Shown: positions 7,099 to 27,157 of the stretch, piece after piece | Numbering within the stretch: position 1 is the stretch's first letter | Layout: each line of letters starts with the position of its first letter | IMG/VR virus record: IMGVR_UViG_3300017758_000070 | Coordinates: 1 to 30,667 of that record | DNA length: 30,667 nucleotides | Direction: 5' to 3' (one strand) | From: a virus | Made by a program: the position numbers and the translations under genes | Notes under the pieces: model-generated | Database searches by the model: none | What the model was told of the DNA's origin: nothing | Seen by the model: only the letters and a program-made list of their open reading frames with translations

Positions 7099-8565
7099 TT
7101 AAAATCTAACGTAAACACCACCTGCTTTACCACTACTAGCACCACCGCCGCCTGTACCATCAGCACCATTACCGTTACCGTCAGTACCAGAACCGCCGTT
7201 AGCGTTTACTGGATCGTATCTTTGTTGAGAACCATTTCCTCCTCCACCGAAGAATCCTGATTCACCGAATGTACTAAATTCTGATATTTCTACACCAACA
7301 CCACCATTACAGTTTCCTGGGCAACCATGTGGCTCACTTCCGTTTCCGCCTGAGCCGCCGCCTCCGCCGCCACCCCAAAAGTAGTGACCGTCTCTGTATC
7401 CGCCGCCTCTGTTACCTCCGTGAGAAGTACCTCCGTCAGCAACGTTAGCTTGTGTTGTTGTAAATGGTGTTGATTGACAACCTGATTGTGTACCTTGAGG
7501 ATGAGCACCACCTGTGTTAGCACCACCGTTAGAGTTAGTTTGTCCCCCACCTCTAGCAGTTATATTACTGAATGTTGTATCTCCTCCAGATTGATTACCA
7601 CCACCGCCACCACCGACAGAACCTGGTATTCCTCCAGCAGATAATGGGTGTGAAGCCTTATAAACAAGACCTCCTCCGCCACCACCAGCAGAACCACCTC
7701 CGCCTGCGCCGCCACCGACTACAAGTACCTCGTAGTTACCTGTAAATGGAGCAGTAAATGTAAACGCACCAGCAGCAGTTACAGATGTTACTGAAGGAGC
7801 TTTAACTGTTAGTGAAAATGCTCTTGCTTCTGTTCTTATAGCAGAGTCAGCTGATTGTACAATAGCTGTTACTGTAAAGTTTGATGTAGTATCTGAACCT
7901 ACAGCGTCTGGTGTACCTGATATATCTCCGTTATCATTATTAAATGACATACCTGCTGGTATTGAACCAGAAGTTATATTGTGATAGATAGCAACTGAAT
8001 CGTTTGAGTCAGCACCAGCGTCATAAACACCGCCTGCTGCTCTACCTGAATCGTAAATTGTACCTAATGAACCTGCGTCATTTCTAAAAGTTGGATCTCC
8101 AATACGAGAAATTGTTGTTGTACTTTCAGCGTTTTGACCTGTTGGATTAATAACTTTAACTTTAATAGCTGAAATAGAAGTTGCGATAGGACTTGAAGCA
8201 AAACCTGTTACAGCAGTTAGTTGGGTTGAACTAACTCTACTTACTGTTGGTGAATTACCTAAAGATGAATCGTCTGCGTTGTTTAAGAAAGTGACAGTCG
8301 CACCTGTCATAAAATTTGTACCATTAATAGTAATAGTAGTATCGTTATCTTCGTTATAAGTACCTGATAAAGATGATACTGACGGTGGTAAAGCAATAGT
8401 TTCAAAATCAGAACCGTCTGATTGTTCTAATCTTTTTAATGTTGAATTATATCTTAATAAACCCTCAGCAGCTGATGGTCTTTGAGCAGTTGTACCTGAA
8501 GGCATTACTATACCCGAAGTATCACCACTTAAATCTATACTTGGATTTTTTACTTTTGTTACCAT
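7099..8565 (-). CDS. Tail-fibre adhesin: Ig-like domains plus polyglycine-rich C-terminal domain
   Basis: This 488-residue protein is probably a receptor-binding adhesin. Domain order: an N-terminal fibre segment (1-58, with LLRYNSTLKRLEQSDGS); an IPT/TIG-type Ig domain (about 60-153, TITINGTNFMTGATVTF); a putative-Ig (He_PIG type) domain (about 165-255, with SIPAGMSFNNDNGDISGTPD at 201-220); and a glycine-rich domain (278-488) that opens with the typical YEVLVVGGGAGGGG. Runs of six to eight Gly (about 293-299, 318-323, 398-404) resemble the polyglycine-II bundles of T4-like distal adhesins such as phage S16 gp38. Three Cys sit in the glycine region (363, 415, 419). The glycine codons make this stretch much richer in G+C than the surroundings. 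It lies between a DGST protein and the unrecognised 232-residue gene. Confidence 0.88.
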   Translation of the reverse strand: MVTKVKNPSIDLSGDTSGIVMPSGTTAQRPSAAEGLLRYNSTLKRLEQSDGSDFETIALPPSVSSLSGTYNEDNDTTITINGTNFMTGATVTFLNNADDSSLGNSPTVSRVSSTQLTAVTGFASSPIATSISAIKVKVINPTGQNAESTTTISRIGDPTFRNDAGSLGTIYDSGRAAGGVYDAGADSNDSVAIYHNITSGSIPAGMSFNNDNGDISGTPDAVGSDTTSNFTVTAIVQSADSAIRTEARAFSLTVKAPSVTSVTAAGAFTFTAPFTGNYEVLVVGGGAGGGGSAGGGGGGLVYKASHPLSAGGIPGSVGGGGGGNQSGGDTTFSNITARGGGQTNSNGGANTGGAHPQGTQSGCQSTPFTTTQANVADGGTSHGGNRGGGYRDGHYFWGGGGGGGSGGNGSEPHGCPGNCNGGVGVEISEFSTFGESGFFGGGGNGSQQRYDPVNANGGSGTDGNGNGADGTGGGGASSGKAGGVYVRF

Positions 8566-8581
8566 TTTTTAATCTCTCCCA

Positions 8582-8824
8582 TTATACTGGCATTTCAACG
8601 AGTACAACCACAGATGAAGCGCCTGGAGCGGCGTCAAACTGTAAAGATGTACCACCAATTGAATAGTCATTGTTAGGGTCTTGGTATACACCATCAATAT
8701 AAGCCATAACTTTATTATCAGTTAATGATTCTGTAACTGTAAAGTTAGTCGTAGAACCATCACCAGTGTATGTTCTAACGTTTATATCTGTAGGTCTATG
8801 TATATCATTGATATATCTAACCAT
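8582..8824 (-). CDS. Small DGST-module structural protein
   Basis: This 80-residue protein is a single beta domain. Residues 19-30 read YTGDGSTTNFTV, then MAYIDGVYQDPNNDYSI (about 40-56), then LQFDAAPGASSVVVLVEMPV. The same order (DGST-F, then a strand with V/I-DG/NN-V-Q-P, then a TAxP turn, then a closing strand) recurs at the N-termini of the proteins at 22271-23242 and 20491-20940 and near the C-terminus of the 2092-residue protein. It is therefore a stand-alone copy of a module used throughout this virion. It probably joins fibres or baseplate parts. It lies between the short beta protein and the adhesin. Confidence 0.8.
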   Translation of the reverse strand: MVRYINDIHRPTDINVRTYTGDGSTTNFTVTESLTDNKVMAYIDGVYQDPNNDYSIGGTSLQFDAAPGASSVVVLVEMPV

Positions 8825-8837
8825 TTAATTACCCCTA

Positions 8838-9206
8838 TTATACGTCTTCTAAGACTGAAATTGTTACGTCAATAGCAGACCCTGCTGAAGCTTCAGCTCT
8901 TAATACGTCTGCGTTTGAACCATCATTTTGTACAACTAATTTGTTGCCTTGCATTACCTCTAAAGTCGTTTTCGGTGGTACTTTTACATCTTTAATAATA
9001 TAAACATCATTTGAACCATCTTCATTATCTAAGAAGATACTTGCTGTTCTTTCTGTTGTTGTTTTATTACAGACGTTAATACCAATAATTATAGACTCTA
9101 GGGCACTTGAACCTGCGCCTGCTGGAACAGTGTACACAGCGTCTGCCGAAGCACCTGTACCTGTACCGACACTCGGTTTTGCAAATCTTTTAAAATCGTT
9201 AGCCAT
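8838..9206 (-). CDS. Short beta-rich virion structural protein (paralogue of 23251-23574)
   Basis: This 122-residue protein carries alternating strands: YTVPAGAGSSALESIIIGINVCNKT (26-50), then TASIFLDNEDGSNDVYIIKDVKVPPKTTLEVMQGNKLVVQ, and a final DVTISVLEDV. The layout is mean-valued strand, N-x-T/S loop, IP/VPP turn, LVVQNDG, closing xxVTxxxL. The 107-residue protein at 23251-23574 shares it, and both follow an IALG-type fibre gene. The start has an AAAGGGA Shine-Dalgarno and a late promoter box at 9228-9235. A structural role in the fibre or baseplate is inferred from family context in marine T4-like phages. Confidence 0.8.
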   Translation of the reverse strand: MANDFKRFAKPSVGTGTGASADAVYTVPAGAGSSALESIIIGINVCNKTTTERTASIFLDNEDGSNDVYIIKDVKVPPKTTLEVMQGNKLVVQNDGSNADVLRAEASAGSAIDVTISVLEDV

Positions 9207-9227
9207 TATACTATCCCTTTATTGTTA

Positions 9228-9235
9228 TATTTATA
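9228..9235 (-). promoter_or_regulatory. Late promoter box TATAAATA
   Basis: An exact TATAAATA on the minus strand in the 37-base gap before the gene at 8838-9206. The predicted +1 near 9222 gives a 16-base leader with AAAGGGA. A second exact match at 9300-9307 lies inside the upstream coding region and may be chance. Confidence 0.8.
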
Positions 9236-9243
9236 TACTTTTT

Positions 9244-9822
9244 TTATCCTAATGCTATTGCTTGTGCTATAGCAAATGGTTTTGTTGCCACACTTACACT
9301 ATTTATAGTCACATCCGAACTAGCGGCAAGTGTAGTTCCACTAATTGTTGTACCACTAATTGTAGTGGCACTTGCGATTGCCCCACCAGATGATACAGTT
9401 ACACTATCGTTTAATGTTAAAAGTGAACTATCAGTTGTTCTTATTCTATTTTCAGTTAAAAATAATGTGCCTGCTGTAACAGATGTACTACCTACTAAAG
9501 CAGTTGAAGTCAAACTTGTTAAACCTGTGATTGTTGAATCTAAAGAAGCAGTTAAAGTGTCAGTAGCACTTACAGTCATAGATACACCACCTGAACCTAC
9601 AACGTTTAAAGTATCACCACCTTCAATTGTTTGAGTTGTTGACGAAGCGTCTCTAAGTGTAAACTGTGAAGTACCAGCTTTTGCCTCATTAACAGCGGCA
9701 ACTAATGAAGATTTATCAGTTGTATCTAAATTAGTTAAATCACCTGTATCTGTGGCATGACTATTAAACGTACTTCTCAACGTTTCTATTGTGTCATTTA
9801 CATTTACTACTCTTACAGCCAT
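9244..9822 (-). CDS. Fibre-like virion structural protein with C-terminal QAIALG
   Basis: This 192-residue Ser/Thr-rich protein starts with a possible helical neck (VNVNDTIETLRSTFNSHATDTGDLTNLDT, then LVAAVNEAKAG at about 42-52). It continues with repeated beta units (TAGTLFLTENRIRTTDSSLLTLND; TISGTTISGTTLAAS). It ends in SVATKPFAIAQAIALG, like the end of the protein at 3571-4632 and, more loosely, the one at 23578-24399. Its start overlaps the stop of the coiled-coil gene by one base (TAATG). I infer a short trimeric fibre or a fibre segment. Confidence 0.8.
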   Translation of the reverse strand: MAVRVVNVNDTIETLRSTFNSHATDTGDLTNLDTTDKSSLVAAVNEAKAGTSQFTLRDASSTTQTIEGGDTLNVVGSGGVSMTVSATDTLTASLDSTITGLTSLTSTALVGSTSVTAGTLFLTENRIRTTDSSLLTLNDSVTVSSGGAIASATTISGTTISGTTLAASSDVTINSVSVATKPFAIAQAIALG

Positions 9823-16333: not shown

Positions 16334-17797
16334 CTAAAATTCAATTATCAGTTTAACGTTTTCAGTTTGATCTGAAGCTCTTGTTATTGGTGCTCTATTT
16401 TCTAAATACAATACGTCACCTGTGTCGGCGTCAATTTCAGAACCAGTGTATCCACTTGAAAATGAAATACTATCAACTGTTGAAGAAGCACTTGAAGGTG
16501 TTCCTGTAGCACTTGATGATTGTCCTGTAATTGTATGTGTACTAGAAAATGCTGTTAAATTTCCATTACTATCTGCGCCAGCATCATTATGTCTTGTTTG
16601 TATATAATATAAAATTTTGTTTGATGAATCCCATTCTACAACTTTACCTACAGCGCCTGAAGTGGCTTGATTTATTTCTTCATCAACTGTAAAGTTACCT
16701 GAATTACTAGCAAGTAATATTGCTTTTGTTCCTCTTAATGTTGTAGATGAAGCAGCTGATCCGCCTGATTTAATATCTCTAAGTAAAGCAACTCTTCTAA
16801 AATCTTGTCCTACAACGAAATCACCTGTGTTTGATGATTCAGTACCTTCAAAGTTTGTATTACACATTACAAAAAATCCACCTAATTCTTTTACAGCATT
16901 AAATCCGTGTCCGCCTTTTGGCTCTATAATTACATCTAATTCTGAACCACTTAAACTTGTAGCACCAGCAGATACTATATCAGCATTTCTAATATAACCG
17001 TAAGTATAACCTGTTCCAGGAGTTGTAACTGTTACTGCTGTCACAGCACCACCTGATACTGTTACAGTACAAGCACCAGATGAACCATCACCTCTAATCG
17101 CAACACCTGTGTGTGATCCGTTAGTACCACCTGAACCTGCTGTTTTAATTTTTACTATGTTAACGGCACCATCTACAGCGGCAGATGATACAGTTGAATT
17201 AGTAGCAACTGCCATAAAGTCAGTTGATAAAAAGTTTTGTCTTTGAGCAGCAGATAAAGAATACATATATTTCCATTTGTATCCGTCACCAGTTGTTAAT
17301 ATAGAGTTTGATGTACCACTTGGTTCTACTGTTGAGTTAGCGTCACCATTGTTATCTAAACATTTGTAAACATTGAAGTCAGATGTTAGTACATAAAAAG
17401 TTGCGTCATATAAAGCTGTAGCACCACTGTTTGCTGATTGTGTACTTGAAGTTGATCCTGTTACTAAATGTCCATAATCATGTCTGTAATAATCGTAAAC
17501 TGTGCCAGTTGTCCAGTTTCTTCTAGGTACAGCAAATGATATGTCATTACTTGTAACTTTTTTAGCAGCCATAAAGTCGTCAAAAGAATAAAACTCTTCT
17601 TGTATTGAATCGACAGGTGTAGGTGCTGAAGTATCAGAACCTTCAAATTCTGTTCTACTATCTGGTCTTGTAGAAGTACCAAATGCGTGTGGTCTTCCTA
17701 TAGCTAAATAATACACATTAGCAGATGATTCTGAAAAAGACTCTTGGAACTGCTCTGAGTTGTGTATTCTAAACTTATTTGTTATTATTGCTGGCAT
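16334..17797 (-). CDS. 8: Baseplate wedge subunit, gp8-like (enlarged)
   Basis: This 487-residue protein keeps the landmarks of T4 gp8 (334 residues). They are N-terminal IITNKFRIHNSEQFQESF (T4 VTSKFRTEKMLNFYNSI), VPRRNW at 90-95 (T4 IPRRDW), VYKCLDN with VEPSG and DGYKWKYMYSLS (T4 VYRCLD, DGYVWEYLFEI), and the C-terminus LYLENRAPITRASDQTENVKLIIEF (T4 YMENRPPIIMAMDQTEEINILFTF). The extra length lies in the middle (about 200-460), with Gly/Ser-rich strands including a TVDEEINQATSGAVGKVVEWD unit. T4 gp8 is a wedge protein near gp7 and gp10. The gene follows cassette 1 and precedes DUF4815. The start has AAGGA and a promoter-like GATAAATA upstream. Confidence 0.9.
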   Translation of the reverse strand: MPAIITNKFRIHNSEQFQESFSESSANVYYLAIGRPHAFGTSTRPDSRTEFEGSDTSAPTPVDSIQEEFYSFDDFMAAKKVTSNDISFAVPRRNWTTGTVYDYYRHDYGHLVTGSTSSTQSANSGATALYDATFYVLTSDFNVYKCLDNNGDANSTVEPSGTSNSILTTGDGYKWKYMYSLSAAQRQNFLSTDFMAVATNSTVSSAAVDGAVNIVKIKTAGSGGTNGSHTGVAIRGDGSSGACTVTVSGGAVTAVTVTTPGTGYTYGYIRNADIVSAGATSLSGSELDVIIEPKGGHGFNAVKELGGFFVMCNTNFEGTESSNTGDFVVGQDFRRVALLRDIKSGGSAASSTTLRGTKAILLASNSGNFTVDEEINQATSGAVGKVVEWDSSNKILYYIQTRHNDAGADSNGNLTAFSSTHTITGQSSSATGTPSSASSTVDSISFSSGYTGSEIDADTGDVLYLENRAPITRASDQTENVKLIIEF

Positions 17798-17832: not shown

Positions 17833-18114
17833 TTATGGTTTTGTCGGCCAAGTCACATTTTCACATTTCTCAACCGTGTCTTTTCCACTTGGTAAGTCTC
17901 TTAAATTTTGTCTGTATGTTTTCATATCGTCTGATAAAGTTTGATCTGACAATGCTAAATAATCTGTCTCAGCAAGTAGTCTATTTCTCTTTGTTCTCAA
18001 ACTTAGTATAGCTTCATTAAAAAGTTGAGTATCTGATTTTGTTTGTTCATCTACTTCAGCTTGTGTCATTTCCACTTCGACACCGTTAAGTAATTTAAAT
18101 TTACCTGTGCTCAT
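17833..18114 (-). CDS. Tail-fibre assembly chaperone-like protein
   Basis: This 93-residue protein has the layout of phage tail-assembly chaperones of the Phage_tail_APC type. A short beta N-terminus (FKLLNGVEVEMT) is followed by a helix, then RTKRNRLLAETDYLALSD with MKTYRQNLRDLP (about 40-75), and a WPTKP tail. The R-N/D-x-L-L-x-x-T-D-(W/Y) and YRQ-x-LRDLP motifs are shared with the paralogue at 21310-21627. Such proteins usually act on the fibre encoded just upstream, here the MALT fibre at 18114-18728, with which it shares a TAATG overlap. An SD GGAG precedes the start. Confidence 0.82.
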   Translation of the reverse strand: MSTGKFKLLNGVEVEMTQAEVDEQTKSDTQLFNEAILSLRTKRNRLLAETDYLALSDQTLSDDMKTYRQNLRDLPSGKDTVEKCENVTWPTKP

Positions 18115-18728
18115 TAATATTTAACTCCATATACTGTTACAACTCCGCCAGCTTCAAAATTACCACCACTATTACCAAACATTTTAAATTTACTAAATGC
18201 TGTACCAGCAAGAGAAGTATCTTCAACAGCTGTAAAACCTAATCTATCTCCACCACTTCTTTGAAATCCTTGATAGAAAAAATACAATGCTCTTTGAGCA
18301 GCTTCTATATCATCATTAGGTGCTGGCCAAATCCACATTGTACCACTAAAAGAGTTACCCATACCATCAGGACCTCTACTTGAATTAGCAGCAGAGTGAT
18401 CTGTTCGACTATTGTCTTCAACAACTGCTGAATTATAGTCTGTATCTGTTAAATAACCACCTGAAGTTCCAACTTGCATATTAAGATTTTGTGAAGAGGC
18501 AAAAACTAAATTTTGCATTGAAACCATATATCCTCTATATGTTGTCGTATCTAATCCAGTGAACTCAATTGTTGATGTAGAAGCAGTTGTTGTAGCAGTT
18601 GATAGTTTGACTAAATCATTATATGTTGATGTAATACTGGCAGCCGTTGTAACAGCAGTACCTCCATTAGCAACAGGTAGTGTACCTGAAACTGCTGGAC
18701 TAGTTAAACTTATTCTTGTTAATGCCAT
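18114..18728 (-). CDS. Tail-fibre protein, MALTRISL type
   Basis: This 204-residue protein starts MALTRISLTSPAVSGTLPVANGGTAV, a fibre attachment or neck segment frequent in marine phages. It then forms a beta-rich domain (FTGLDTTTYRGYMVSMQNLVFAS at about 57-79; ending KFKMFGNSGGNFEAGGVVTVYGVKY). The C-terminal x-YGVKY resembles the end of the relative at 21620-22261 (LWGYYDG). Both are followed directly by a chaperone-like gene. It probably forms a short receptor-binding fibre that its downstream neighbour helps to fold. A good Shine-Dalgarno (AGGAG) precedes the start. Confidence 0.8.
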   Translation of the reverse strand: MALTRISLTSPAVSGTLPVANGGTAVTTAASITSTYNDLVKLSTATTTASTSTIEFTGLDTTTYRGYMVSMQNLVFASSQNLNMQVGTSGGYLTDTDYNSAVVEDNSRTDHSAANSSRGPDGMGNSFSGTMWIWPAPNDDIEAAQRALYFFYQGFQRSGGDRLGFTAVEDTSLAGTAFSKFKMFGNSGGNFEAGGVVTVYGVKY

Positions 18729-18729
18729 A

Positions 18730-19299
18730 TTAAGCTCCTATTACCCTAAATCCTTCAAAAATTGATCTGTAAATTCCATCTGTTATTGTACTTGTTCCTT
18801 TAATTGAGGGAGTGCTACTTGTGTCATCTACTTGTAAATAAACTTCAATATAATCATTTGCAACTAAAGGTAAAGTTATAGCAGCTTGAACTGTAAATTG
18901 ATGTCCTGGATTATCTCTAAAATCAAAAATAGCATAATCTATTCTTGCCCCATTTTTATAAAACATTAATTCACCAGTATTATAATTAGCATTACCAGCA
19001 CAACTAGAATACATTTTAGTATGTAAAAAATATTTTCCATCCTTACCGCTCGGTACAGTAAATTTATCAGAAGCAAAAGCACTATCAGTATCATAAAATT
19101 CTGCGTTCCAAGTTACTTTAGTATTTACGTTATCAGATAAACTTTGATCGGATGATTTATAAACACTAAAAGCAGGAGTGTTAGAAAGGAAACCTGTTGC
19201 CATAGCACTACCTGGTGTAAATGTACCACTACCGTTTGAAGATACAATAGAATTTCCGCCTGCGTCTTGTATTGTATTTACTTTTAAAACACTACTCAT
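18730..19299 (-). CDS. C1q-like fibre protein (block B, third copy)
   Basis: This 189-residue protein has a short N-terminal attachment segment (SSVLKVNTIQDAGGNSIVSSNGSG) typical of marine phage fibres, then a C1q/TNF-like jelly-roll from about residue 42. Its landmarks are PAFSVYKSSDQ, then WNAEFYDTDSAFASDKFTVPSGKDGKYFLHTKM, then ELMFYKNGARI, then LPLVANDYIEVYLQVDD, and a closing FEGFRVIGA. C1q-like domains form trimers and are used as receptor-binding tips. The start has GGAGG upstream. It is one of three adjacent C1q-like genes plus a fourth, fused copy at 22271-23242. Confidence 0.85.
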   Translation of the reverse strand: MSSVLKVNTIQDAGGNSIVSSNGSGTFTPGSAMATGFLSNTPAFSVYKSSDQSLSDNVNTKVTWNAEFYDTDSAFASDKFTVPSGKDGKYFLHTKMYSSCAGNANYNTGELMFYKNGARIDYAIFDFRDNPGHQFTVQAAITLPLVANDYIEVYLQVDDTSSTPSIKGTSTITDGIYRSIFEGFRVIGA

Positions 19300-19302
19300 T
19301 TA

Positions 19303-19932
19303 TTAATATCCTCCGTATCCTGAACTAGCACCTGAATCACTACCACTAACTCCGCCAGTATTTGTTGATGAAACTGAGGATCCTATTCTCATACCCCAAA
19401 AAGTATTACCGTATTCTGTTCGCCAATCTCTACTACTTCCATGATTATGTTTAATGTAAACTTCAAAATAATCATCTACATCAACATCAACAATTGTGGT
19501 AAGATTAGCTTGATGTGGAGTTGTGCCAGAACTTTCTGTAATCATATTTAAACCTTGAGCATTTGTACCTACCTCAGAACCATTTTTATATATACTTACT
19601 CTTATATAAGCTTGGTCTGCTATATTATCAATAGTTATACCTGTGCCCATTTGATATAGTCCTGCTACTGTAGCAGTAAATCTATAATTTGTAGTAATAT
19701 CAAAATTAGTATTAGTATCCCAATACTTGGCATTAAATTGTGCTTTTGTAAAACTATTATTTCCTATAGATTGATAACCACCATTATTATAATCTCTATA
19801 CACACAAAAAGTAGGTGCCATATGACCTGTCATTGTGCCTTTTGCTGTTAACTGTACATTTGCTGGTATAATAACCGAACCTGCGCCTGTTGTTGTCGTT
19901 AATGTTCCAGCTTTTATTGTTCCACCTGCCAT
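19303..19932 (-). CDS. C1q-like fibre protein (block B, second copy)
   Basis: This 209-residue protein begins with GTIKAGTLTTTTGAGSVIIPANVQLTAKGTM and continues into a C1q-like jelly-roll. Landmarks are APTFCVYRDYN, FNAKYWDTNTNFDITTNYRFTATVAGLYQMGTGI, then VSIYKNGSEVG, then VDVDVDDYFEVYIKHNH, and WGMRIGSS. The tail is a Ser/Gly/Tyr-rich linker ending GYGGY, which is not present in the neighbours. The Shine-Dalgarno is AGGAG. Probable trimeric tip or fibre domain. Sequence divergence from its neighbours suggests an old duplication or independent acquisition. Confidence 0.83.
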   Translation of the reverse strand: MAGGTIKAGTLTTTTGAGSVIIPANVQLTAKGTMTGHMAPTFCVYRDYNNGGYQSIGNNSFTKAQFNAKYWDTNTNFDITTNYRFTATVAGLYQMGTGITIDNIADQAYIRVSIYKNGSEVGTNAQGLNMITESSGTTPHQANLTTIVDVDVDDYFEVYIKHNHGSSRDWRTEYGNTFWGMRIGSSVSSTNTGGVSGSDSGASSGYGGY

Positions 19933-19934
19933 CT

Positions 19935-20489
19935 TTAAACTCCTATCATCCTATACATACCAAATATGCTTTCATCTGTTCTAACTTCTATTGTTCCAGA
20001 ATCTACATCTCCTCTGCCATAAATTTCAATATAATCTCCAGCAGATAATACTATTGAAGTTGATAGATTAAGTCCATAATATCTACCATTACCATCATTG
20101 TTGGTATTAGTAAGCGCTCTAGTAGTGGTTTTTGAACCATTTTTGTAAACATATGCTTGGCATTGAGCAAGACCAGAATTAGCACTACTACCTACTGTAA
20201 GGTTACAATAAAGATGATATTTTCCTCCTAAACCTGACGGTACTGTAAATCTTTTAGCACTTACATCATAAGCACTATTGGTATCAAAAACTTCGCTATC
20301 AAAATTAATTAATGTATCTGTTCCGCCACTAGGATTTTGCTCTGTTGTAATTCTTGCTTCAAAAGCAGGAACCATTGATATAGCACCAGATATAGTAGCT
20401 CCTGTTGGAACTGTAACTGTATCAGTAGCAGAGCCAACTGTAAGTGTTGATCCTACTGGTTCGATTGTATTTACTGTTATTGAACTCAT
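19935..20489 (-). CDS. C1q-like fibre protein (block B, first copy)
   Basis: This 184-residue protein starts SSITVNTIEPVGSTLTVGSATDTVTVPTGATI, a beta-helical attachment segment, and continues with a C1q-like domain from about residue 40. Landmarks are PAFEARITTEQ, then INFDSEVFDTNSAYDVSAKRFTVPSGLGGKYHLYCNL, then AYVYKNGSKTT, then SAGDYIEIYGRGDVD, and IFGMYRMIGV. It follows the MSYIG protein after one base, which itself lacks a C1q domain. The Shine-Dalgarno is weak, so coupling to the upstream gene is likely. Confidence 0.84.
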   Translation of the reverse strand: MSSITVNTIEPVGSTLTVGSATDTVTVPTGATISGAISMVPAFEARITTEQNPSGGTDTLINFDSEVFDTNSAYDVSAKRFTVPSGLGGKYHLYCNLTVGSSANSGLAQCQAYVYKNGSKTTTRALTNTNNDGNGRYYGLNLSTSIVLSAGDYIEIYGRGDVDSGTIEVRTDESIFGMYRMIGV

Positions 20490-20490
20490 A

Positions 20491-20940
20491 TTAAACTATT
20501 GTTACCGTTGAGCCCGAAGGCACTGTTATTGTTCCACTGACTGTTATAGGACCAGCCAATAAAGCATTTTCTGAACTTGATATAGAAATACTTGTTAATG
20601 TCTGATTGTTTTTATGATACCATGACGAAGCTAATTTAGCAGTCGTAATAGTAGCATCCGAAGGTGTACCTATATCTAATACGTTTCCGTAAACGATACC
20701 GTAAAAAGAATCCGTACTTTCAGGAGCACCTGTAAATGTAATTGTTGAACCAGATACAGTATAAGCGCTGTTGGGTTCCTGAACTACGCCAGAAATTGTA
20801 ACCAACATGTTTTGCTCATTCAGAGGAATTACACTTTCGCCGCCAGATTGCATTGTAAATGCCTGAGTTGATCCGTCAAAAGACAAATCATCTAACTTTG
20901 TAAAGTTTCCTATTACTGGTTGTTTTCCTATATAAGACAT
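20491..20940 (-). CDS. MSYIG/DGST fibre-attachment protein (unfused form)
   Basis: This 149-residue protein carries the N-terminal MSYIG motif followed by a DGST module: LSFDGSTQAFTM (about 19-30), MLVTISGVVQEPNSAYTVSGSTITFTGAPESTDSFYGIVYG (about 45-85). It then has ATITTAKLASS and a Ser/Thr/Val-rich beta C-terminus (GPITVSGTITVPSGSTVTIV). The first 110 residues correspond to the start of the protein at 22271-23242, which continues into a C1q domain; here the C1q domains are on separate genes downstream. Its role is probably attachment to the baseplate or a fibre base. A variant late box lies just upstream. Confidence 0.82.
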   Translation of the reverse strand: MSYIGKQPVIGNFTKLDDLSFDGSTQAFTMQSGGESVIPLNEQNMLVTISGVVQEPNSAYTVSGSTITFTGAPESTDSFYGIVYGNVLDIGTPSDATITTAKLASSWYHKNNQTLTSISISSSENALLAGPITVSGTITVPSGSTVTIV

Positions 20941-20946
20941 CTTAAT

Positions 20947-20954
20947 TATTTATC
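20947..20954 (-). promoter_or_regulatory. Variant late promoter box GATAAATA before block B
   Basis: A one-base variant of the T4 late box on the minus strand, in the 27-base gap before the MSYIG gene. With T4 geometry the transcript would start at about 20941, directly at the ATG, so it would have almost no leader. It could also serve the downstream C1q genes. Less certain than the exact boxes. Confidence 0.45.
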
Positions 20955-20967
20955 TCTATTTTTTTAA

Positions 20968-21294
20968 TTAACTTTTTGGATTTGCGTCTTTAACAGCTTT
21001 GATTCTTGTTTTCCAAGCGTCAATATCTTTATAGATTTCATCCAACTGGTCACCAATATTACCGTAAGCAGCTTTTCTTGTACTTTTTACACCATTATTA
21101 GTTTCCTCTGTATTACCAGCAGCTTCATAACTAGCGATTTGTGAATCAGATGGTTGTGCTAAACCAGATACGTTCCAAGATTTAATGTAATCTCCAGAAC
21201 CATCATTTTGTAAAGCAATATTTTCTTGTTCACTATCCCAAGTTTTTGAATTAGCTACTAAATACAATTTAACTTTTGTTGCTAAACTTGCCAT
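20968..21294 (-). CDS. Tail-fibre assembly-associated protein (chaperone-like)
   Basis: This 108-residue protein ends in AYGNIGDQLDEIYKDIDAWKTRIKAVKDANPK (about 75-107). This QLDEIYxDIDAWKxxIxAVK signature is one I associate with small proteins next to tail-fibre genes in marine phages, often called tail-fibre assembly proteins. The N-terminal half has strand and loop character (KLYLVANSKTWDSEQENIALQNDGSGDYIKSWN). It follows the chaperone-like gene at 21310-21627 and closes block A. The Shine-Dalgarno AAGGAG is strong. A chaperone role is inferred. Confidence 0.72.
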   Translation of the reverse strand: MASLATKVKLYLVANSKTWDSEQENIALQNDGSGDYIKSWNVSGLAQPSDSQIASYEAAGNTEETNNGVKSTRKAAYGNIGDQLDEIYKDIDAWKTRIKAVKDANPKS

Positions 21295-21309
21295 TTTTGT
21301 TTCTCCTTA

Positions 21310-21627
21310 TTATCCTTTTGTAGGTAAATTTAGATTACTTAAATTTTCTTCTAAAGTTTTACCGTCAGTTGTTGTGTAATTACTAGGCAAATCTCTTAAT
21401 GCCTGTCTGTAATCTTTTAAATTTTGTTGTACACCTGTACCTCTGTCAGCTGCCTTTATTATTTCCCAATCAGTTTCTTTTAATAACTGATCTCTTTTTA
21501 CTCTTATATTTGCCATTGTTCTATCGTTCTTGCCGTTAGCCCAAGCAGTCTCTTCAGCGTCTCTAGCAGCTTCTTCCTGTGCTGTGTAAGCAATTTTTAC
21601 ACCATCTACTATTTTAAATCTAGCCAT
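21310..21627 (-). CDS. Tail-fibre assembly chaperone-like protein
   Basis: I place the start at the ATG at 21625-21627 (MARFKIVDGVKIAYT), giving 105 residues. It has a GGGGG Shine-Dalgarno about 8 bases upstream and only an 8-base overlap with the preceding gene; the longer reading frame would overlap by 65 bases with an uninformative N-terminus. It shares with 17833-18114 the R-D-Q-LL-x-ETDW motif (about 45-55), the YRQALRDLP motif, and a short C-terminal LPTKG tail (WPTKP in the relative). It follows the MALS fibre at 21620-22261, whose folding it probably assists. Confidence 0.82.
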   Translation of the reverse strand: MARFKIVDGVKIAYTAQEEAARDAEETAWANGKNDRTMANIRVKRDQLLKETDWEIIKAADRGTGVQQNLKDYRQALRDLPSNYTTTDGKTLEENLSNLNLPTKG

Positions 21628-22261
21628 CGTAGTACCCCCATAAAGTATAAAAGTAATCTTCAAAATTTCCAGTGTTAGGAGCAATACTAATCTTATTCAT
21701 TTTTAAAACATAAGTTGCCTCTAAACTAGCACTACCTCTAATTTCTCTAAAATTGTTACTACCATCAAATCTACAACCTTCCCAAGTCCAATTGTTTGAT
21801 TGTTTAACACTTGACTCAGTGTCAATAGGTCTTAAACGCATAATAACATTCCAACTTTCAGCGTTATCAGTATTATTACCAGCGTCTTTTGACATTTCTA
21901 CCGAAGTAGCACCATTAGAATAAATTACGTCATGTGCTGTGCCATCAGCATAAATGTGTTGATAACCATACTTATAGTTATTACTTGAATTATGAAAACT
22001 TGAACCATCTGTTGAAACAGTACAAGTTAAGTGTGCGTTATCTGTTTCAGGTTTAGCACTAAATTCTAATAAAAAAGATTTATATGTTTCAGGTAAAGTT
22101 ATTTGAATAGAACCTATTCCAGATTGAGCAGTAGCAGAAGCAGTAGCAATTTTTCTAAGGTTACCTATATCAGAGGCAGACGTTACCGTTGTACCACCTA
22201 ATGTAACTGGTAGAGCATTTTCTACTGCGTTTCCTGATAAACTAATTTTACTTAATGCCAT
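21620..22261 (-). CDS. Tail-fibre protein, MALSKISL type
   Basis: This 213-residue protein starts MALSKISLSGNAVENALPVTLGGTTV, parallel to MALTRISLTSPAVSGTLPVANGGTAV in 18114-18728. The remainder is a beta-rich globular domain (LPETYKSFLLEFSAKPETDNAHLTC at about 56-80; ending FEDYFYTLWGYYDG). The two proteins differ strongly after the first 35 residues, as expected when the receptor-binding part diverges faster than the attachment part. Its stop overlaps the start of its chaperone-like neighbour. The Shine-Dalgarno is AGGAAT. Confidence 0.8.
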   Translation of the reverse strand: MALSKISLSGNAVENALPVTLGGTTVTSASDIGNLRKIATASATAQSGIGSIQITLPETYKSFLLEFSAKPETDNAHLTCTVSTDGSSFHNSSNNYKYGYQHIYADGTAHDVIYSNGATSVEMSKDAGNNTDNAESWNVIMRLRPIDTESSVKQSNNWTWEGCRFDGSNNFREIRGSASLEATYVLKMNKISIAPNTGNFEDYFYTLWGYYDG

Positions 22262-22270
22262 TTTTTATTC

Positions 22271-23242
22271 CTATACGTTTAATTTGTACCCACTAAATTG
22301 TGATGTTGTTATTCTGCCAGTTCCTGTTGAAAAATCTATTTTTATATATGCTTCAACATAATCATCAGTATCTAAATCAACTATAATTGAAGTTGATTGC
22401 ATCATTAACTCTAATTCTTGTTCTGCTTTGTGTGTATTAGTTGTATAGTCAATAGCTGAACCATTTTTATAGATAGCTATTGCCAATGAAGTTATTGATG
22501 AAGCACTTGATGTTCCACCAGTAGCATTTACTTCAATATAATATTTTCCTGATACTGTTGGAGTAAATCTATCAGAAGCAAATTTTCCATCACTATCTAA
22601 ATTTTCTGTATCATAAGTAATTTTTGTCCAAGTATTGTCTGATTGACCAGTTGTTTGACCTGATTTAGAAGCAGAAAAAGCTGGAGCATTTATTTTATCA
22701 AACTTCATAGTACCTGTTGCTGTTGTACCTGAACCTGAAATTGAATCAACTGCCAAAACTGTGCCAGCTGCCACATTATTTTCTGGAAAAATTAATGTAT
22801 AAGATTGTGATACAGCATGAGGTGGCGATTCTAATTTTATACCATGACTATTAGCAGAGCAGTTTAGCTGAATTTGACCAGCTTGTGAACCACTACCTTG
22901 TGATGTTACACCTGCTGTAGATGTATCTGTAATAAAGTTTGTTTTTGCTTTTGTAACTGAACCGTCAGGTGTATTAATTGTACCTACTGTAAATCCTAAG
23001 TAATAACAATACATAGTATCGCCTGAAGCAGGTGCCGCTGACATTAATAAAGTATTAGCAGAAGCAGTATAAGCTTTGCCAGAACCAGGTTCTTGTATAA
23101 CGTTATTAACTACAACCAATAAATCTTTTTCGTTTGTAACTGAATGATCTAAAGAAAAAGACGTAGTTGATCCGTCAGGTGTAAACGACTGACTTTGTTT
23201 TTGTAAAAACGTTGTAGCAGGTATTTGTCCTATGTAACTCAT
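22271..23242 (-). CDS. Fused MSYIG/DGST plus C1q-like fibre protein
   Basis: This 323-residue protein has an MSYIG N-terminus and DGST module (SFTPDGSTTSFSL at about 20-32; LLVVVNNVIQEPGSGKAYT at about 41-59; AAPASGDTMYCYYLG). A linker follows (VTKAKTNFITDTSTAGVTSQGSGSQ), then a beta segment (LIFPENNVAAGTVLAVDS). From about residue 188 it has a C1q-like domain with APAFSASKSGQTT, ITYDTENLDSDGKFASDRFTPTVSGKYYIEVNA, IAIYKNGSAID, LDTDDYVEAYIKIDF and SGYKLNV. It unites in one chain what block B has on separate genes. The start has AAGGA upstream. Confidence 0.85.
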   Translation of the reverse strand: MSYIGQIPATTFLQKQSQSFTPDGSTTSFSLDHSVTNEKDLLVVVNNVIQEPGSGKAYTASANTLLMSAAPASGDTMYCYYLGFTVGTINTPDGSVTKAKTNFITDTSTAGVTSQGSGSQAGQIQLNCSANSHGIKLESPPHAVSQSYTLIFPENNVAAGTVLAVDSISGSGTTATGTMKFDKINAPAFSASKSGQTTGQSDNTWTKITYDTENLDSDGKFASDRFTPTVSGKYYIEVNATGGTSSASSITSLAIAIYKNGSAIDYTTNTHKAEQELELMMQSTSIIVDLDTDDYVEAYIKIDFSTGTGRITTSQFSGYKLNV

Positions 23243-23250
23243 TTATATCC

Positions 23251-23574
23251 TTAACTTACATCTGTTAATAATTGTAAAGCGACTGTTACTAATCCACTAG
23301 CATTATCCGATTGTACTTGTACTTTATCGTTTGTTTGAAGTACGATTTTCGGTATTTTGAAAGCAGATCCTACAACTAGTGGAGCATTTTCCACTATTGT
23401 AAAAGTTGTACTTGTCGTAGCGTCCATCTTAGCAATTTTTATGTTCACAGACGTTGTGCTTGAAGTATTAGCAACTGTTCCAGCAATCACTAAAGACTTC
23501 GCTGTAGCAGTAAAAACATCTGTCAACGAATTGCTTGTAATCGCTGATGAAGTATCTGAAAAGTTATTAGCCAT
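23251..23574 (-). CDS. Short beta-rich virion structural protein (paralogue of 8838-9206)
   Basis: This 107-residue protein has strand-rich composition: TDVFTATAKSLVIAGTVANTSSTTSVNIKIAKMD (about 18-51), then FKIPKIVLQTNDKVQVQSDNASGLVTVALQLLTDVS. It shares layout with the 122-residue protein at 8838-9206 (same MAN start, N-x-(T/S) loop, IP/VPP turn, N-D-x-V/L strand and xxVTxxLxxDV end). Both follow an IALG fibre gene. It has an AGGAG Shine-Dalgarno. Structural role inferred. Confidence 0.78.
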   Translation of the reverse strand: MANNFSDTSSAITSNSLTDVFTATAKSLVIAGTVANTSSTTSVNIKIAKMDATTSTTFTIVENAPLVVGSAFKIPKIVLQTNDKVQVQSDNASGLVTVALQLLTDVS

Positions 23575-23577
23575 TTA

Positions 23578-24399
23578 TTATTCTCCTCCTAAAGCAATTG
23601 CAAATGCTAATCCAGCAGCATTTAATTGATCTTGTATTGATGAGGTTACCCCACTTAGATAACCTAATTCTGTTGTTGTTACGGAAGTTACGGATACATC
23701 TCCGTTTGAATCTGAAGCTAATGCTCTACTAGCAGTCAAATTTTCCATTTTACTAAACGCAATGGCAGCAGCTGCCTTAATATCTGCGTTTTCAATATTT
23801 GTTATACTGTTACCTGTACCGTCAGCATCAAAAGTTTTATTTGTAAATGTAGTTGTACTGGCACCTGTAACACTTGAAACTTGTGTGGCAATATATGCCT
23901 TAATAGATTGTTGAGAAGCAGCAGCAGTTGCTGAATCTGAAGCAAAGTTATCTTCATCTAAAAAGCCTGTACCACTTAACGCACCATTTAAAACTGGTGC
24001 TGTTAATGTTTTATTTGTTAATGTTTGTGAACCTGTTAATGTAGCAATTGTGGCGTCAACAGCAATAGATAATCTATCTGTATTAACACCTGTTGTTGTA
24101 ATACCTGTACCACCTGCCACAGTTAATGTATTACCAGAAACTATTGATTGATTATCACCACCGTCACCTGCGATTGTGAAACCACCTGCGTCTCCTGGCT
24201 CAAATAAACCATTAGATGAATTATAAATTAAAGTTTGACCGTTAGTTACACCTGATATTGTAAATGCGACAGTAGAACCATCACCTAAAGCACTGTAAAT
24301 TTCGTTAAAGTTTTCGTTGATTAGATCACCACCAGCACGAAGCGTAGTACCCGTTCCGTCATTGGCAGTTGTTCCTATCTGAATTACTTGTCTACCCAT
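23578..24399 (-). CDS. Fibre-like virion structural protein with C-terminal FAIALG
   Basis: This 273-residue protein begins GRQVIQIGTTANDGTGTTLRAGGDLINENFNEIYSALGDG (about 2-42), which is a common N-terminus of marine T4-like fibre proteins. It continues with repeated beta units (GSQTLTNKTLTAPVLNG around 125-142; TTFTNKTFDADGTGNSITNIENADIKAAAAIAFSKM). LGYLSGVTSSIQDQLNAA (about 248-265), a motif frequent near the ends of phage fibre shafts, follows, and the protein ends LAFAIALGGE. The tail resembles the QAIALG ends at 3571-4632 and 9244-9822. Its start overlaps the stop of the tiny upstream gene. Confidence 0.83.
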   Translation of the reverse strand: MGRQVIQIGTTANDGTGTTLRAGGDLINENFNEIYSALGDGSTVAFTISGVTNGQTLIYNSSNGLFEPGDAGGFTIAGDGGDNQSIVSGNTLTVAGGTGITTTGVNTDRLSIAVDATIATLTGSQTLTNKTLTAPVLNGALSGTGFLDEDNFASDSATAAASQQSIKAYIATQVSSVTGASTTTFTNKTFDADGTGNSITNIENADIKAAAAIAFSKMENLTASRALASDSNGDVSVTSVTTTELGYLSGVTSSIQDQLNAAGLAFAIALGGE

Positions 24400-24574: not shown

Positions 24575-27157
24575 TTATCCAGCATCAAAAGTTACATCTG
24601 TTGCGTCAAAGAATGTTTGGTTTTCATCAAAAGTATCTTCTTGTAATAAACCAATTTCTGATGGTATAGCATAATTAGTTTTTAACTTAAATGTAAAATC
24701 ACTTATTCTATTTGATAAACCATTAACACTTGTATTAAACGTACCACCTAATCTTAATGCGTTGATACTACTTATATTTGTTCTATTACTAAAGTTTCCC
24801 CCTAGCATAAACTTACCTAAACTCTTAAATGTAGGTCCTGCCACAGGAATACCAAATTTAGTAGAGTTATTTCTAATAGCAACAGGAAATTCTTTGTATT
24901 CGCTTAATTTTAACGTAATTCTTTGAGTTAATGTTCTATCTCTAGTGTTTGCTGTAAAGTGATCACTTGTACTATCATTTAAATCAGCACCAACACCTAA
25001 ATTTTTATTTGCTCTTACGGATGTACCATCTGTTTCAGTACCTAATCTACTACCTAAAATTGTAGAGAATAATGTATTGATTACTAGAGCAGGTCCATCA
25101 TAAGATATACTTGAATTTAGACCTGTTATAGATTTAAGTCTAGCATTTATTCTATTAACACTATCAACTTGTCCTGTAAAGTAAAAACCAGCACCGTGCA
25201 TTGTCTTTTTAAATGAATCTCGCCAGTCATTTATTGATCTACCAACTTTAATTACATATGAAAAATCTTGGTAGTATAAACTATCTTGTACTTTCATTGT
25301 TAATTCTGAAACATGACCATCCTCATTTAAATAACTTCCATCAGTATCAATGATTGTAGCAACAGTTGTTGAAGCAGTTGCTGTATCTACTATTTTAACA
25401 ATAGCAGTTTTGCCTGAAGTTCCACCTGTTAATGTAGTATCAACAGCAAATGTTCCACTTGCCGAAGATAAAGTCATTATTTGAGTATTAGTATTTAAAG
25501 ATTTAAAAGTTGCCGTAATAGCAGTTGAAGATGAATCTATACCTGTAATAGTTTCATTTTCTGTAAATGTACCTGAAATATCAGTTACTAAAATTTTTGT
25601 TAAAAAAGTAAATGAAGGTGGTGAAGGTGAATCTTGGTAATTAATACCTGGATCAATTTTATTAATACTTTGAACTCTGCCTACTTGATCACCGAAAGCA
25701 AATACACTAGCACCTGAACCACCACTATCTGTTGACACAGCAACAGTAGGTAAAGATGTATAGTTTGAACCTGAGTTGATAATTCTTATATCAGTAATAT
25801 CTTCACTGCCTGATCCTGATTCTTGTACAATTTTATTTCCTGTATATGGATCACCTCTTACTGTTTCATCTTCTAAAACAATATGATCCTCAACAGTTGA
25901 TGTTGAATCTTCTTGTGTAAAACCACCATTAACAACTGAAACTTTTGCTTCAGCTGATCCTCCACCAGCACCTGTATTAGTAAAATTAATATCATCCCCA
26001 ATAGCATAACCTGTACCACCTGCGTCTATAACAAAACTAGTTATACCACCTGAGCCTACATCACCTACTTGTATTGAAGCAGCCTCACCACCACCTGTAA
26101 CTGTAATAACATCACCAGTTGAATATAAGGCACCATCATTTGATATAGTTGATGTTGAAGGTAAAGCACTAACAGTTGCTTTAATAAATTCTGTTGATGT
26201 ATCTGATTGTGTGCCTCTAATTTCTTCGCCAGCAGTAAAAGTTCCAGTGATAGTATCTTCATTTAATATTAATTCAGAAACTTCATTTGAACCTATTTGA
26301 AATCTAAATACGTTTTCAATAATAGCAGTTGCGCCAGAGGTTTGACCTGTAATTGTTCTACCTATTAAATTTTCTGTTGCGCCAGTTGTAACAACACATC
26401 TTAATATTTTTTTAATATTCCATTGACCATCTGAGGCTCTTAACATTTGTTCTTTAGGATAAATTGTTTCAGAATTTAACCCAAATAACATTTTAAAAAA
26501 TATTTCGTGTCCTCTAGCAGTACCTTTTGATCTATATAAAGATTTAATATTTTTAATTAATTTTCTTTTATCTATTTCAGAAAATAAAGTTTCAGGTAAA
26601 GTATTTAAAAATTCATTTCTAAACTTTGTTAAGAAATTAGAAATAACTTTATCTGGATCTCTAAATTCTAAAAGTTGTTGAATAGTTGAAACAGGATTAG
26701 GTTTGTAATTATTAATAACAGCACTAGCACTAGAAGAACTACCTGTTATAGTTTCACCATCTTTAAATTTATTTTGTGATGAAATATATAATTTACCATT
26801 ACTTAAATCCTCTGTAAGAACTGTTGCCGTAGCATTTGTAGTAGAACCTGTAATAGTTTCACCTCTAGTAAATTTACCATAAGTAGAACTTTCTAAAAGT
26901 ATTTTATCACCAGCGTCTTCTTGTGTTCTTTCAGATGTTAATTTAGAACCGTCTAATAATAATTCATTTTCTAAAGAGGTATCAGTTTCTAATGATATAC
27001 CGTCTGTTGTTTGTACACTAGTTACGGATAGCTCTGCCGCTTCCATAAAAGTATAATATTGTTTTATAAATTCTAAAAATTTAGGATGTTGCTCTAAAAC
27101 AAAGTCAGGAGCCTGACTGTTAACTAGATTTGAAATTAAGTCAGTGAACTTTGCCAT
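24575..27157 (-). CDS. 7: Baseplate wedge subunit, gp7-like
   Basis: This 860-residue protein corresponds to the C-terminal half of T4 gp7 (1032 residues). LEQHPKFLEFIKQYYTFMEA (21-40) matches T4 QDSNFEAFCEAYIQYLSDG. LFSEIDKRKLIKNIKSLYRSKG, then ARGHEIFFKMLFGLNSETIYPKE (about 191-236), matches the T4 segment IYLNADKRDAVARFFESRS to KGIEASYKFLFKVLYNEEVEIE. The N-terminal beta-propeller-like half of T4 gp7 is missing. The rest is extended with repeats of a G(E/R)TITGxTSxATAxV unit near residues 99, 133, 267, 300-320, 520 and 550. It follows gp6 after 2 bases. T4 gp7 forms the wedge core with gp6, gp53 and gp25. Confidence 0.87.
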   Translation of the reverse strand: MAKFTDLISNLVNSQAPDFVLEQHPKFLEFIKQYYTFMEAAELSVTSVQTTDGISLETDTSLENELLLDGSKLTSERTQEDAGDKILLESSTYGKFTRGETITGSTTNATATVLTEDLSNGKLYISSQNKFKDGETITGSSSSASAVINNYKPNPVSTIQQLLEFRDPDKVISNFLTKFRNEFLNTLPETLFSEIDKRKLIKNIKSLYRSKGTARGHEIFFKMLFGLNSETIYPKEQMLRASDGQWNIKKILRCVVTTGATENLIGRTITGQTSGATAIIENVFRFQIGSNEVSELILNEDTITGTFTAGEEIRGTQSDTSTEFIKATVSALPSTSTISNDGALYSTGDVITVTGGGEAASIQVGDVGSGGITSFVIDAGGTGYAIGDDINFTNTGAGGGSAEAKVSVVNGGFTQEDSTSTVEDHIVLEDETVRGDPYTGNKIVQESGSGSEDITDIRIINSGSNYTSLPTVAVSTDSGGSGASVFAFGDQVGRVQSINKIDPGINYQDSPSPPSFTFLTKILVTDISGTFTENETITGIDSSSTAITATFKSLNTNTQIMTLSSASGTFAVDTTLTGGTSGKTAIVKIVDTATASTTVATIIDTDGSYLNEDGHVSELTMKVQDSLYYQDFSYVIKVGRSINDWRDSFKKTMHGAGFYFTGQVDSVNRINARLKSITGLNSSISYDGPALVINTLFSTILGSRLGTETDGTSVRANKNLGVGADLNDSTSDHFTANTRDRTLTQRITLKLSEYKEFPVAIRNNSTKFGIPVAGPTFKSLGKFMLGGNFSNRTNISSINALRLGGTFNTSVNGLSNRISDFTFKLKTNYAIPSEIGLLQEDTFDENQTFFDATDVTFDAG

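Follow-up and report, generated by a model that had tools for sequence, protein, structure and literature searches.

The stretch of DNA analysed here, referred to as the window, is the 30,667-base virus record IMGVR_UViG_3300017758_000070. Its gp8 protein is 73% identical to that of Pelagibacter phage Mosig and 53% to that of HTVC008M, and these identities mark the window as a pelagimyophage-like virus; no match to named phages was found at the DNA level. Its host is probably SAR11. On the minus strand the genes run in the order PAAR protein, gp25, gp6, an 860-residue protein at the gp7 position, a connector of the gp9/gp10 type, a fibre gene cassette (A1 to A4 and B1 to B6, preceded by the small protein u), gp8 and a 2,092-residue VrlC-type protein. 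We consider it likely that this region encodes a modular receptor-binding (fibre) array, located in a baseplate slot, equipped with exchangeable heads and common to SAR11 phages of different morphotypes.

Composition of the cassette

A first-pass annotation of the sequence had described positions 17833-23242 as two copies of one gene module. The ten open reading frames were all confirmed on the minus strand in the order it gave, and they form two units with homologous parts, each led by a protein with an MSYIG N-terminus. The two blocks are not symmetric: block A consists of an MSYIG protein with a C1q head, a protein with a head of the type we call YGI, a chaperone and A4, whereas block B consists of an MSYIG protein, three C1q proteins, a YGI protein and a chaperone. 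A4, annotated as “assembly-like”, has no partner in block B. The start of A3 was corrected, giving a protein of 105 residues whose gene overlaps A2 by 8 nucleotides. In blastp comparisons within the set, the N-termini of A1 and B1 are 41% identical over 107 residues (E 4e-13), the C1q part of A1 matches B4 (4e-17), B2 (2e-10) and B3 (1e-9), and the chaperones A3 and B6 are 33% identical over 103 residues (E 2e-12). A2 and B5 match significantly only at the N-terminal tag, where E ranges from 1e-8 to 1e-6 with the direction of the comparison. Their heads unite in one family only via an iterated profile that was started with nothing but the A2 head.

Against the PF00386 (C1q) cut-off of 23.7 bits, A1 scored 31.6 and B2 18.3, below the threshold; B3 and B4 gave no match but are homologous to A1. 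Across the C1q family of heads, 14 of 32 match PF00386, and a search with the C1q profile recovers solved C1q heads (E 1e-6). In the fibre of cyanophage P-SCSP1u, the distal part of which was not resolved in the map (PMC10575957), residues 583-662 match the MSYIG domain (E 1.5e-14); an N-terminal part of a K1-specific capsule depolymerase also matches this domain. A4 scored exactly at the PF09636 (XkdW) cut-off of 24.6 bits, and all 41 relatives match this family. The best match to its AlphaFold2 (AF2) model, which has a high predicted local distance difference test score (pLDDT), is the XkdW structure 2hg7, over 36 columns only. The model of the A2 head is an all-beta sandwich in a lectin-like arrangement that resembles many fibre models of uncultured phages (template modelling score 0.6-0.7); no sequence match to solved structures was found, and lectin and galectin arrangements reached Z 6-7, which is within background. 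A Pfam search with the tags of the cassette proteins, the part in which a branched complex of the Ackermannviridae kind would have gp10-like XD/TD domains, gave no family.

An assembly chimera was rejected as the source of this arrangement, since other contigs (designated by L numbers) bear it together with flanking core genes: L185 covers gp6 to gp8, L184 gp6 to B1, and L005 A2 to the VrlC gene. L184 is 99-100% identical to the window at the protein level and ends just after B1, which would fit a failure of assembly at heads that differ between members of the population.

Table 1. Coordinates of the cassette, its flanking genes and a related unit in the window
Feature	Coordinates	Strand	Evidence
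860-residue protein, left slot boundary, between gp6 and connector	24575..27157	-	phrog_3465 E 6e-121 (named head closure Hc2); also baseplate wedge families
Connector, gp9/gp10-type, 273 residues	23578..24399	-	phrog_677 E 1e-19 over residues 1-64
u protein, 107-residue putative adaptor	23251..23574	-	blastp E 8e-11 to HTVC019P virion structural protein
A1, MSYIG putative adaptor domain (1-100) and C-terminal C1q head	22271..23242	-	PF00386 E 2e-7, above curated cut-off; MSYIG A-clade
A2, MALS tag and YGI-type all-beta head	21620..22261	-	AF2 model pLDDT 79, beta sandwich
A3, Phage_tail_APC fibre chaperone, insertion subtype	21310..21627	-	PF16778 E 1e-12
A4, XkdW-family accessory protein, fixed mid-cassette	20968..21294	-	PF09636 at cut-off; AF2 pLDDT 95
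B1, second MSYIG putative adaptor, headless	20491..20940	-	57% to HTVC115P, 58% to Lederberg; MSYIG B-clade
B2, tag type 2 and C1q head	19935..20489	-	Tag 95-96%, head 49-52% nucleotide identity between sisters
B3, tag type 3 and C1q-like head	19303..19932	-	93%/91% amino acid identity in L005/L185; 44% to HTVC115P gene, same position
B4, tag type 4 and C1q-like head	18730..19299	-	Tag 89-94%, head 53-54% nucleotide identity between sisters
B5, MALT tag (type 5) and YGI-type head	18114..18728	-	C1q head instead in both sisters
B6, Phage_tail_APC chaperone	17833..18114	-	PF16778 E 2e-13; missing in L005, L185
gp8 baseplate wedge, right slot boundary	16334..17797	-	phrog_438 E 3e-142
Second connector/u/MSYIG unit	7099..9822	-	Downstream of VrlC; 192-residue connector, u 8838-9206, MSYIG 8582-8824, 488-residue fibre

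Heads are replaced at the tag/head seam

The sister contigs L005 and L185 share a backbone 96-97% identical to that of the window, yet individual heads are replaced. Nucleotide identities to the left and right of the best split between window and sisters were 96% and 52% or 95% and 49% for B2, 94% and 54% or 89% and 53% for B4, 96% and 50% or 87% and 44% for B5, and 93% and 56% for A1. Overall, the slot-specific N-terminal tags of the sisters are 87-96% identical and the swapped C-terminal heads 44-56%; the head of B3 is conserved. The reverse mosaic was found in comparison with L089, in which the A2 tag is 53% and the head 95% identical to the window; over the first 25 codons of A3 identity is 93% and then falls to 61%. 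The gp7-position protein of L187, a contig close to L089, is 49% identical to that of the window. Heads also move between slots: the same C1q head (98-99% over about 450 nucleotides) occupies slot B2 of L203 (6567-7010) and slot B4 of L204 (4600-5055). Over all loci, 25 pairs have heads at least 85% identical in nucleotides and tags below 50% in amino acids; several of these pairs stem from the same event and one includes an incomplete open reading frame, leaving perhaps eight independent cases. Wherever simple pattern rules recognise all of the tag types, these run in the order 2, 3, 4, 5.

These mosaics suggest that the present diversity stems from head replacement at the tag/head seams. The first-pass description of a diversified module of host-recognition type is supported, and the diversification is heavy. 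The seam as a conserved DNA recombination site was rejected, as the codons for TPAF are no more conserved than the YKNG control codons.

Chaperone genes accompany YGI heads

After deduplication of neighbours, a Phage_tail_APC gene comes next after 107 of 120 runs of YGI heads but after only 1 of 165 runs of C1q heads, counts that were obtained with mechanical gene calls on related contigs and are not phylogenetically independent. The gene that ends the single exceptional C1q run is a chaperone/A4-like hybrid. Among loci fetched without chaperone or A4 queries, a chaperone followed 17 YGI runs and no C1q run. The chaperone adjoins the fibre gene and is lost together with the YGI head, and in three natural swaps it was gained or lost along with the head. 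In L005 and L185, B5 carries a C1q head and B6 is gone with the right flank unchanged; at slot 2, L203 has a C1q gene without a chaperone, whereas the closely related L204 has another head type with one.

Both A3 (48.1 bits) and B6 (50.7 bits) lie well above the PF16778 cut-off of 26.6, and all 25 relatives match. Their alignment shows a conserved C-terminal half and a variable N-terminus. The fibre chaperone of Pam3 has a variable N-terminus that binds the client and a conserved C-terminus that trimerises (PMC9608196), a layout that fits this alignment and also the mosaic in which the N-terminus of A3 travelled together with the head of A2. We hypothesise that these chaperones would fold the YGI heads of this phage. 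The association is not universal, because the client of the Pam3 chaperone has a TNF-like domain (PMC9608196).

A role for A4 as a dedicated C1q accessory was rejected: the succession C1q to A4 is common (87 cases), but A4 also follows YGI head and chaperone (14 chaperone-to-A4 cases). As it keeps its place after either, A4 is positional. A third head type, ending in VMEI, is often followed by a short protein with a KINPNAE-like N-terminus and an A4-like C-terminus (L223:8188-8514, L220:8263-8562, L219:4872-5165); these short proteins are perhaps an accessory family of the VMEI heads.

The connector tail and the u protein

The connector combines baseplate-type residues 1-64 with a C-terminal tail ending AFAIALGGE. 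Among complete genes directly upstream of u, 76 of 87 end in a FAIAMAIAL- or TALAIALG-like tail, and the genes with AIALG-type tails span 11 N-terminal families without mutual similarity. A stricter pattern was found in 69 of 95 genes upstream of u versus 20 of 2008 other genes, most of the latter being VrlC-type proteins ending RAIALAV. Three such tails occur in the window: AFAIALGGE (23578-24399), FAIAQAIALG (9244-9822) and FSISQAIALG (3571-4632). The tail as a DNA element was rejected (31 distinct 15-mers among 44); since codon choice varies, the tail appears to be selected at the protein level. The association with u suggests that the connector tail docks this protein. A search for a solved relative of u found none, and a search of the literature for a link between the AIALG motif and tail fibres gave nothing.

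The VrlC-type protein of the window (10045-16323) belongs to a group whose members end RAIALAV or RGIALAV, like the connector tail. The second unit of connector, u, MSYIG and fibre (7099-9822) occupies the site of the published host recognition cluster, downstream of VrlC.

The same gene order in SAR11 podoviruses

We compared 66 slots that are covered in full from the gp7-position gene to gp8. The slot is empty in 26 of them and contains other fibre genes in 33; A4-type genes occur in 5, and the remaining 2 have C1q, YGI or chaperone genes but no A4. The slot of close myophage relatives is usually empty or filled with other fibre genes. Copy number in the slot varies among relatives, a point that the first-pass annotation had proposed to check: there is no unit in HTVC008M, a single short one in Mosig (a fibre, a small gene and a chaperone) and two in the window.

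A4 matches 11 named records, all of them Pelagibacter phages with the podovirus P in their names; the best is HTVC115P (70%), the podovirus status of which is taken from its name. The order in HTVC115P is connector, u116, MSYIG with C1q, two other genes, A4, a B1-like gene, C1q genes with tags of types 2, 3 and 4, and finally a gene with a MALT tag and a chaperone (56% over the conserved part). Nine of ten HTVC115P genes match the window in order, including the four tag types in series. The closest collinear cassette is that of isolated SAR11 podoviruses. The proteins u107 and u116 are one family, as their profiles converge on the same 140 proteins. The succession u, MSYIG with C1q, C1q gene, A4 and MSYIG gene recurs in HTVC019P, HTVC035P, HTVC203P, HTVC026P and HTVC106P, whereas HTVC010P, HTVC100P and Lederberg carry partial or altered versions. 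The same module in the same order is accordingly found in different families, in HTVC019P (Autographiviridae) and other podoviruses on one side and in the Kyanoviridae-like window on the other.

A scan of viral contigs with A4 returned many more such loci, with mostly podovirus neighbours. Among myophages, the cassette is carried by the group of the window, by L203/L204/L294 and L284, and partly by L077. Three changes of the myophage label are needed on the A4 tree, two of them forced by the starred branches, and myophage A4 proteins fall in at least two places among those of podoviruses. Recent exchange of heads between myophages and podoviruses was rejected, as no head is common to contigs of both kinds above 75% nucleotide identity; the sharing across families appears to be old or to have passed through unsampled phages.

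A scan of genome contigs with A4 gave four matches, three on apparent phage contigs and one distant. L305, filed under an uncultured alphaproteobacterium assembly (AG-447-O15), carries several HTVC106P-like genes at 97-100% identity together with the cassette and is probably a phage in that cell or bin. L303, binned as a Woesearchaeota genome, bears a podovirus-type SAR11 phage cassette, a placement that is probably a binning error.

A probable modular receptor-binding array

For the array proposed above, we envisage that the N-terminus of the connector is anchored to the baseplate and that its short AIALG-type tail docks the u adaptor of about 107 residues. Together with the two MSYIG adaptors (A1 and B1), u would carry trimeric receptor-binding proteins, each composed of a short slot-specific N-terminal docking tag and an exchangeable C-terminal head. 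Such a head would be of the C1q/TNF-like kind or a YGI beta sandwich resembling lectins. YGI heads would need the Phage_tail_APC chaperone encoded just downstream, whereas C1q heads would not; because of this, replacement of a head would bring in or delete the chaperone. Recombination at the tag/head seam would swap heads within the lineage and between slots. The proposal builds on gene order, mosaics, chaperone-head linkage, clades and the tail motif, all of which were observed; docking contacts, receptor binding, the SAR11 host and the role of the chaperone in this phage are predicted.

Several points weigh against this interpretation. Transfer between morphotypes was not recent, given the missing heads in common; the chaperone counts lack phylogenetic independence; an approximately unbiased (AU) test of A3 and B6 as sisters gave p 0.107 and did not formally reject that topology; C1q-like proteins could be mere decoration of the virion, with no part in receptor binding; and a gene order that is functional and conserved might have been put together piecemeal.

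Piecemeal accretion would mean that the fibre genes were recruited separately and that their order reflects assembly constraints or chance, with no transfer of a cassette between families. Heads and chaperones clearly move singly, identity between the A4 proteins of the window and L204 is only 47% even though the MSYIG genes of the two cluster together, and no recent DNA match crosses morphotypes. We nevertheless regard this history as unlikely in view of the matching order with HTVC115P down to the series of tags, the restriction of A4 among named phages to SAR11 podoviruses, and the separate placements of myophage A4 proteins among those of podoviruses.

Virion decoration is a more doubtful alternative still, in which the C1q and YGI proteins would be decorative or glycan-binding surface proteins rather than primary receptor-binding proteins. 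C1q and lectin-like folds are generic binding folds and occur in multiple copies in one phage. Their genes, on the other hand, sit after a fibre connector and before gp8 and are accompanied by fibre chaperones, and rapid replacement of heads on a conserved backbone is typical of host-recognition genes (PMC3909814).

Returning to the receptor-binding array, a tentative extension, which is possible but which we do not yet favour, is that contractile and short-tailed SAR11 phages have a docking standard in common. Any fibre connector with an AIALG-type tail would then accept u, heads would attach to u and the two MSYIG adaptors by slot-specific tags, and heads with a chaperone of their own would be traded and moved between slots, all of these phages drawing on one pool of heads. 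An ordered head pool common to such phages, with a readable grammar of tag, head and chaperone, would make it possible to recognise host-recognition types in metagenomic sequence. It would also account for the way in which unrelated phages keep up with the same hosts, and would supply a simple rule as to when a fibre head requires a chaperone.

Age of the two units

The first-pass annotation explained the two units by a tandem duplication of a single module, after which the copies had diverged. The units are adjacent, and the pairwise homology of their MSYIG, C1q, tag and chaperone parts is real. We labelled MSYIG domains by position, directly after u or directly after A4. On the MSYIG tree these labels need 2 changes, compared with a mean of 17.4 after shuffling, and none of 500 shuffles was as low. 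A1 clusters with the first-position MSYIG genes of other phages and B1 with second-position ones. Because the clades follow position across many phages, A1 and B1 separated before the phages carrying them split, and any MSYIG duplication is older than that split. The two chaperones rank each other about 130th and 138th among 159 relatives and belong to different subtypes: A3 has a C-terminal insertion in common with L089, L076 and L158, which B6 lacks. Neither A1 and B1 nor A3 and B6 are each other's closest relatives, so that partners largely have different nearest kin, an outcome the annotation itself had named as contrary to its proposal.

Local tandem duplication was therefore rejected on the MSYIG clades and the chaperone partner ranks, the AU test of the chaperones alone not being decisive. 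In addition, the same two-unit order is present in podoviruses, A4 has no copy, and the number of C1q genes and the order of heads differ between the blocks. The ordered set being old and common to SAR11 phages of different morphotypes, the present cassette would not have arisen by duplication here; that scenario is already largely refuted and very improbable.

The least probable account, against which the pattern of variation in this 30.7-kb fragment argues, is that a dedicated diversity generator (retroelement or inversion), not recombination with other phages, made the head diversity: variation is indeed localised on a constant backbone, but heads differ over their full length with indels at about 50% nucleotide identity, and intact foreign heads recur at 95-99% in other phages, which indicates replacement instead of point diversification.

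Comparison with known systems

One study found that SAR11 phages of other morphotypes have no core genes in common with Ubiqueviridae (HTVC010P-type) (PMC10504331), and a second describes cross-family transfer only for metabolic and curli genes (PMC9599517); based on these findings, a structural cassette common to morphotypes would be unexpected. A literature search confined largely to papers outside subscription journals gave no earlier account of an ordered cassette common to these phages and podoviruses, of slot tags, of the chaperone-head rule or of the connector tail.

In marine phage metaviromic islands, C1q, tail fibre, XkdW and fibre assembly genes are among the most variable, and C1q was proposed as the receptor-binding protein of HTVC010P-like phages; gene order, slot tags, the chaperone-head rule and sharing with myoviruses were not found in the part of that study available (PMC3909814). 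The host recognition cluster of pelagimyophages is likewise a hypervariable fibre region in the same phage group, but its site is between VrlC and gp14, whereas the slot of the window is bounded by the gp7-position gene and gp8. In that study, a second plastic region, which splits the baseplate module, was mentioned only for some cyanomyophages (PMC7029224).

Pam3 gp24/gp25 also pair a fibre bearing a TNF-like head with a chaperone of variable N-terminus and conserved, trimerising C-terminus. In Pam3, however, it is the TNF-like head that needs the chaperone, whereas in the array of the window YGI heads and not C1q heads are linked to one (PMC9608196).

The Alteromonas phages A5 (schitovirus), V22 (myovirus) and P24 have a common host-recognition module, and here too a fibre and its cognate chaperone are common to phages of different morphotypes (PMC10579305, PMC7289586). 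The protein families are different, V22 gp27 being reported as DUF4376-type (PMC10579305, PMC7289586), and the predicted module of the window, which concerns SAR11 phages, comprises ten genes with several heads, slot tags and a pair of putative MSYIG adaptors. The branched receptor-binding complex of Ackermannviridae, like the array proposed for the window, combines several receptor-binding proteins whose conserved N-termini dock and whose variable C-termini bind, and the conserved parts were proposed as recombination sites (PMC11414711). That complex is built of large tailspikes with gp10-like XD domains (PMC11414711), whereas the window has tags of 20-45 residues, separate putative adaptor proteins and C1q or lectin-like heads.

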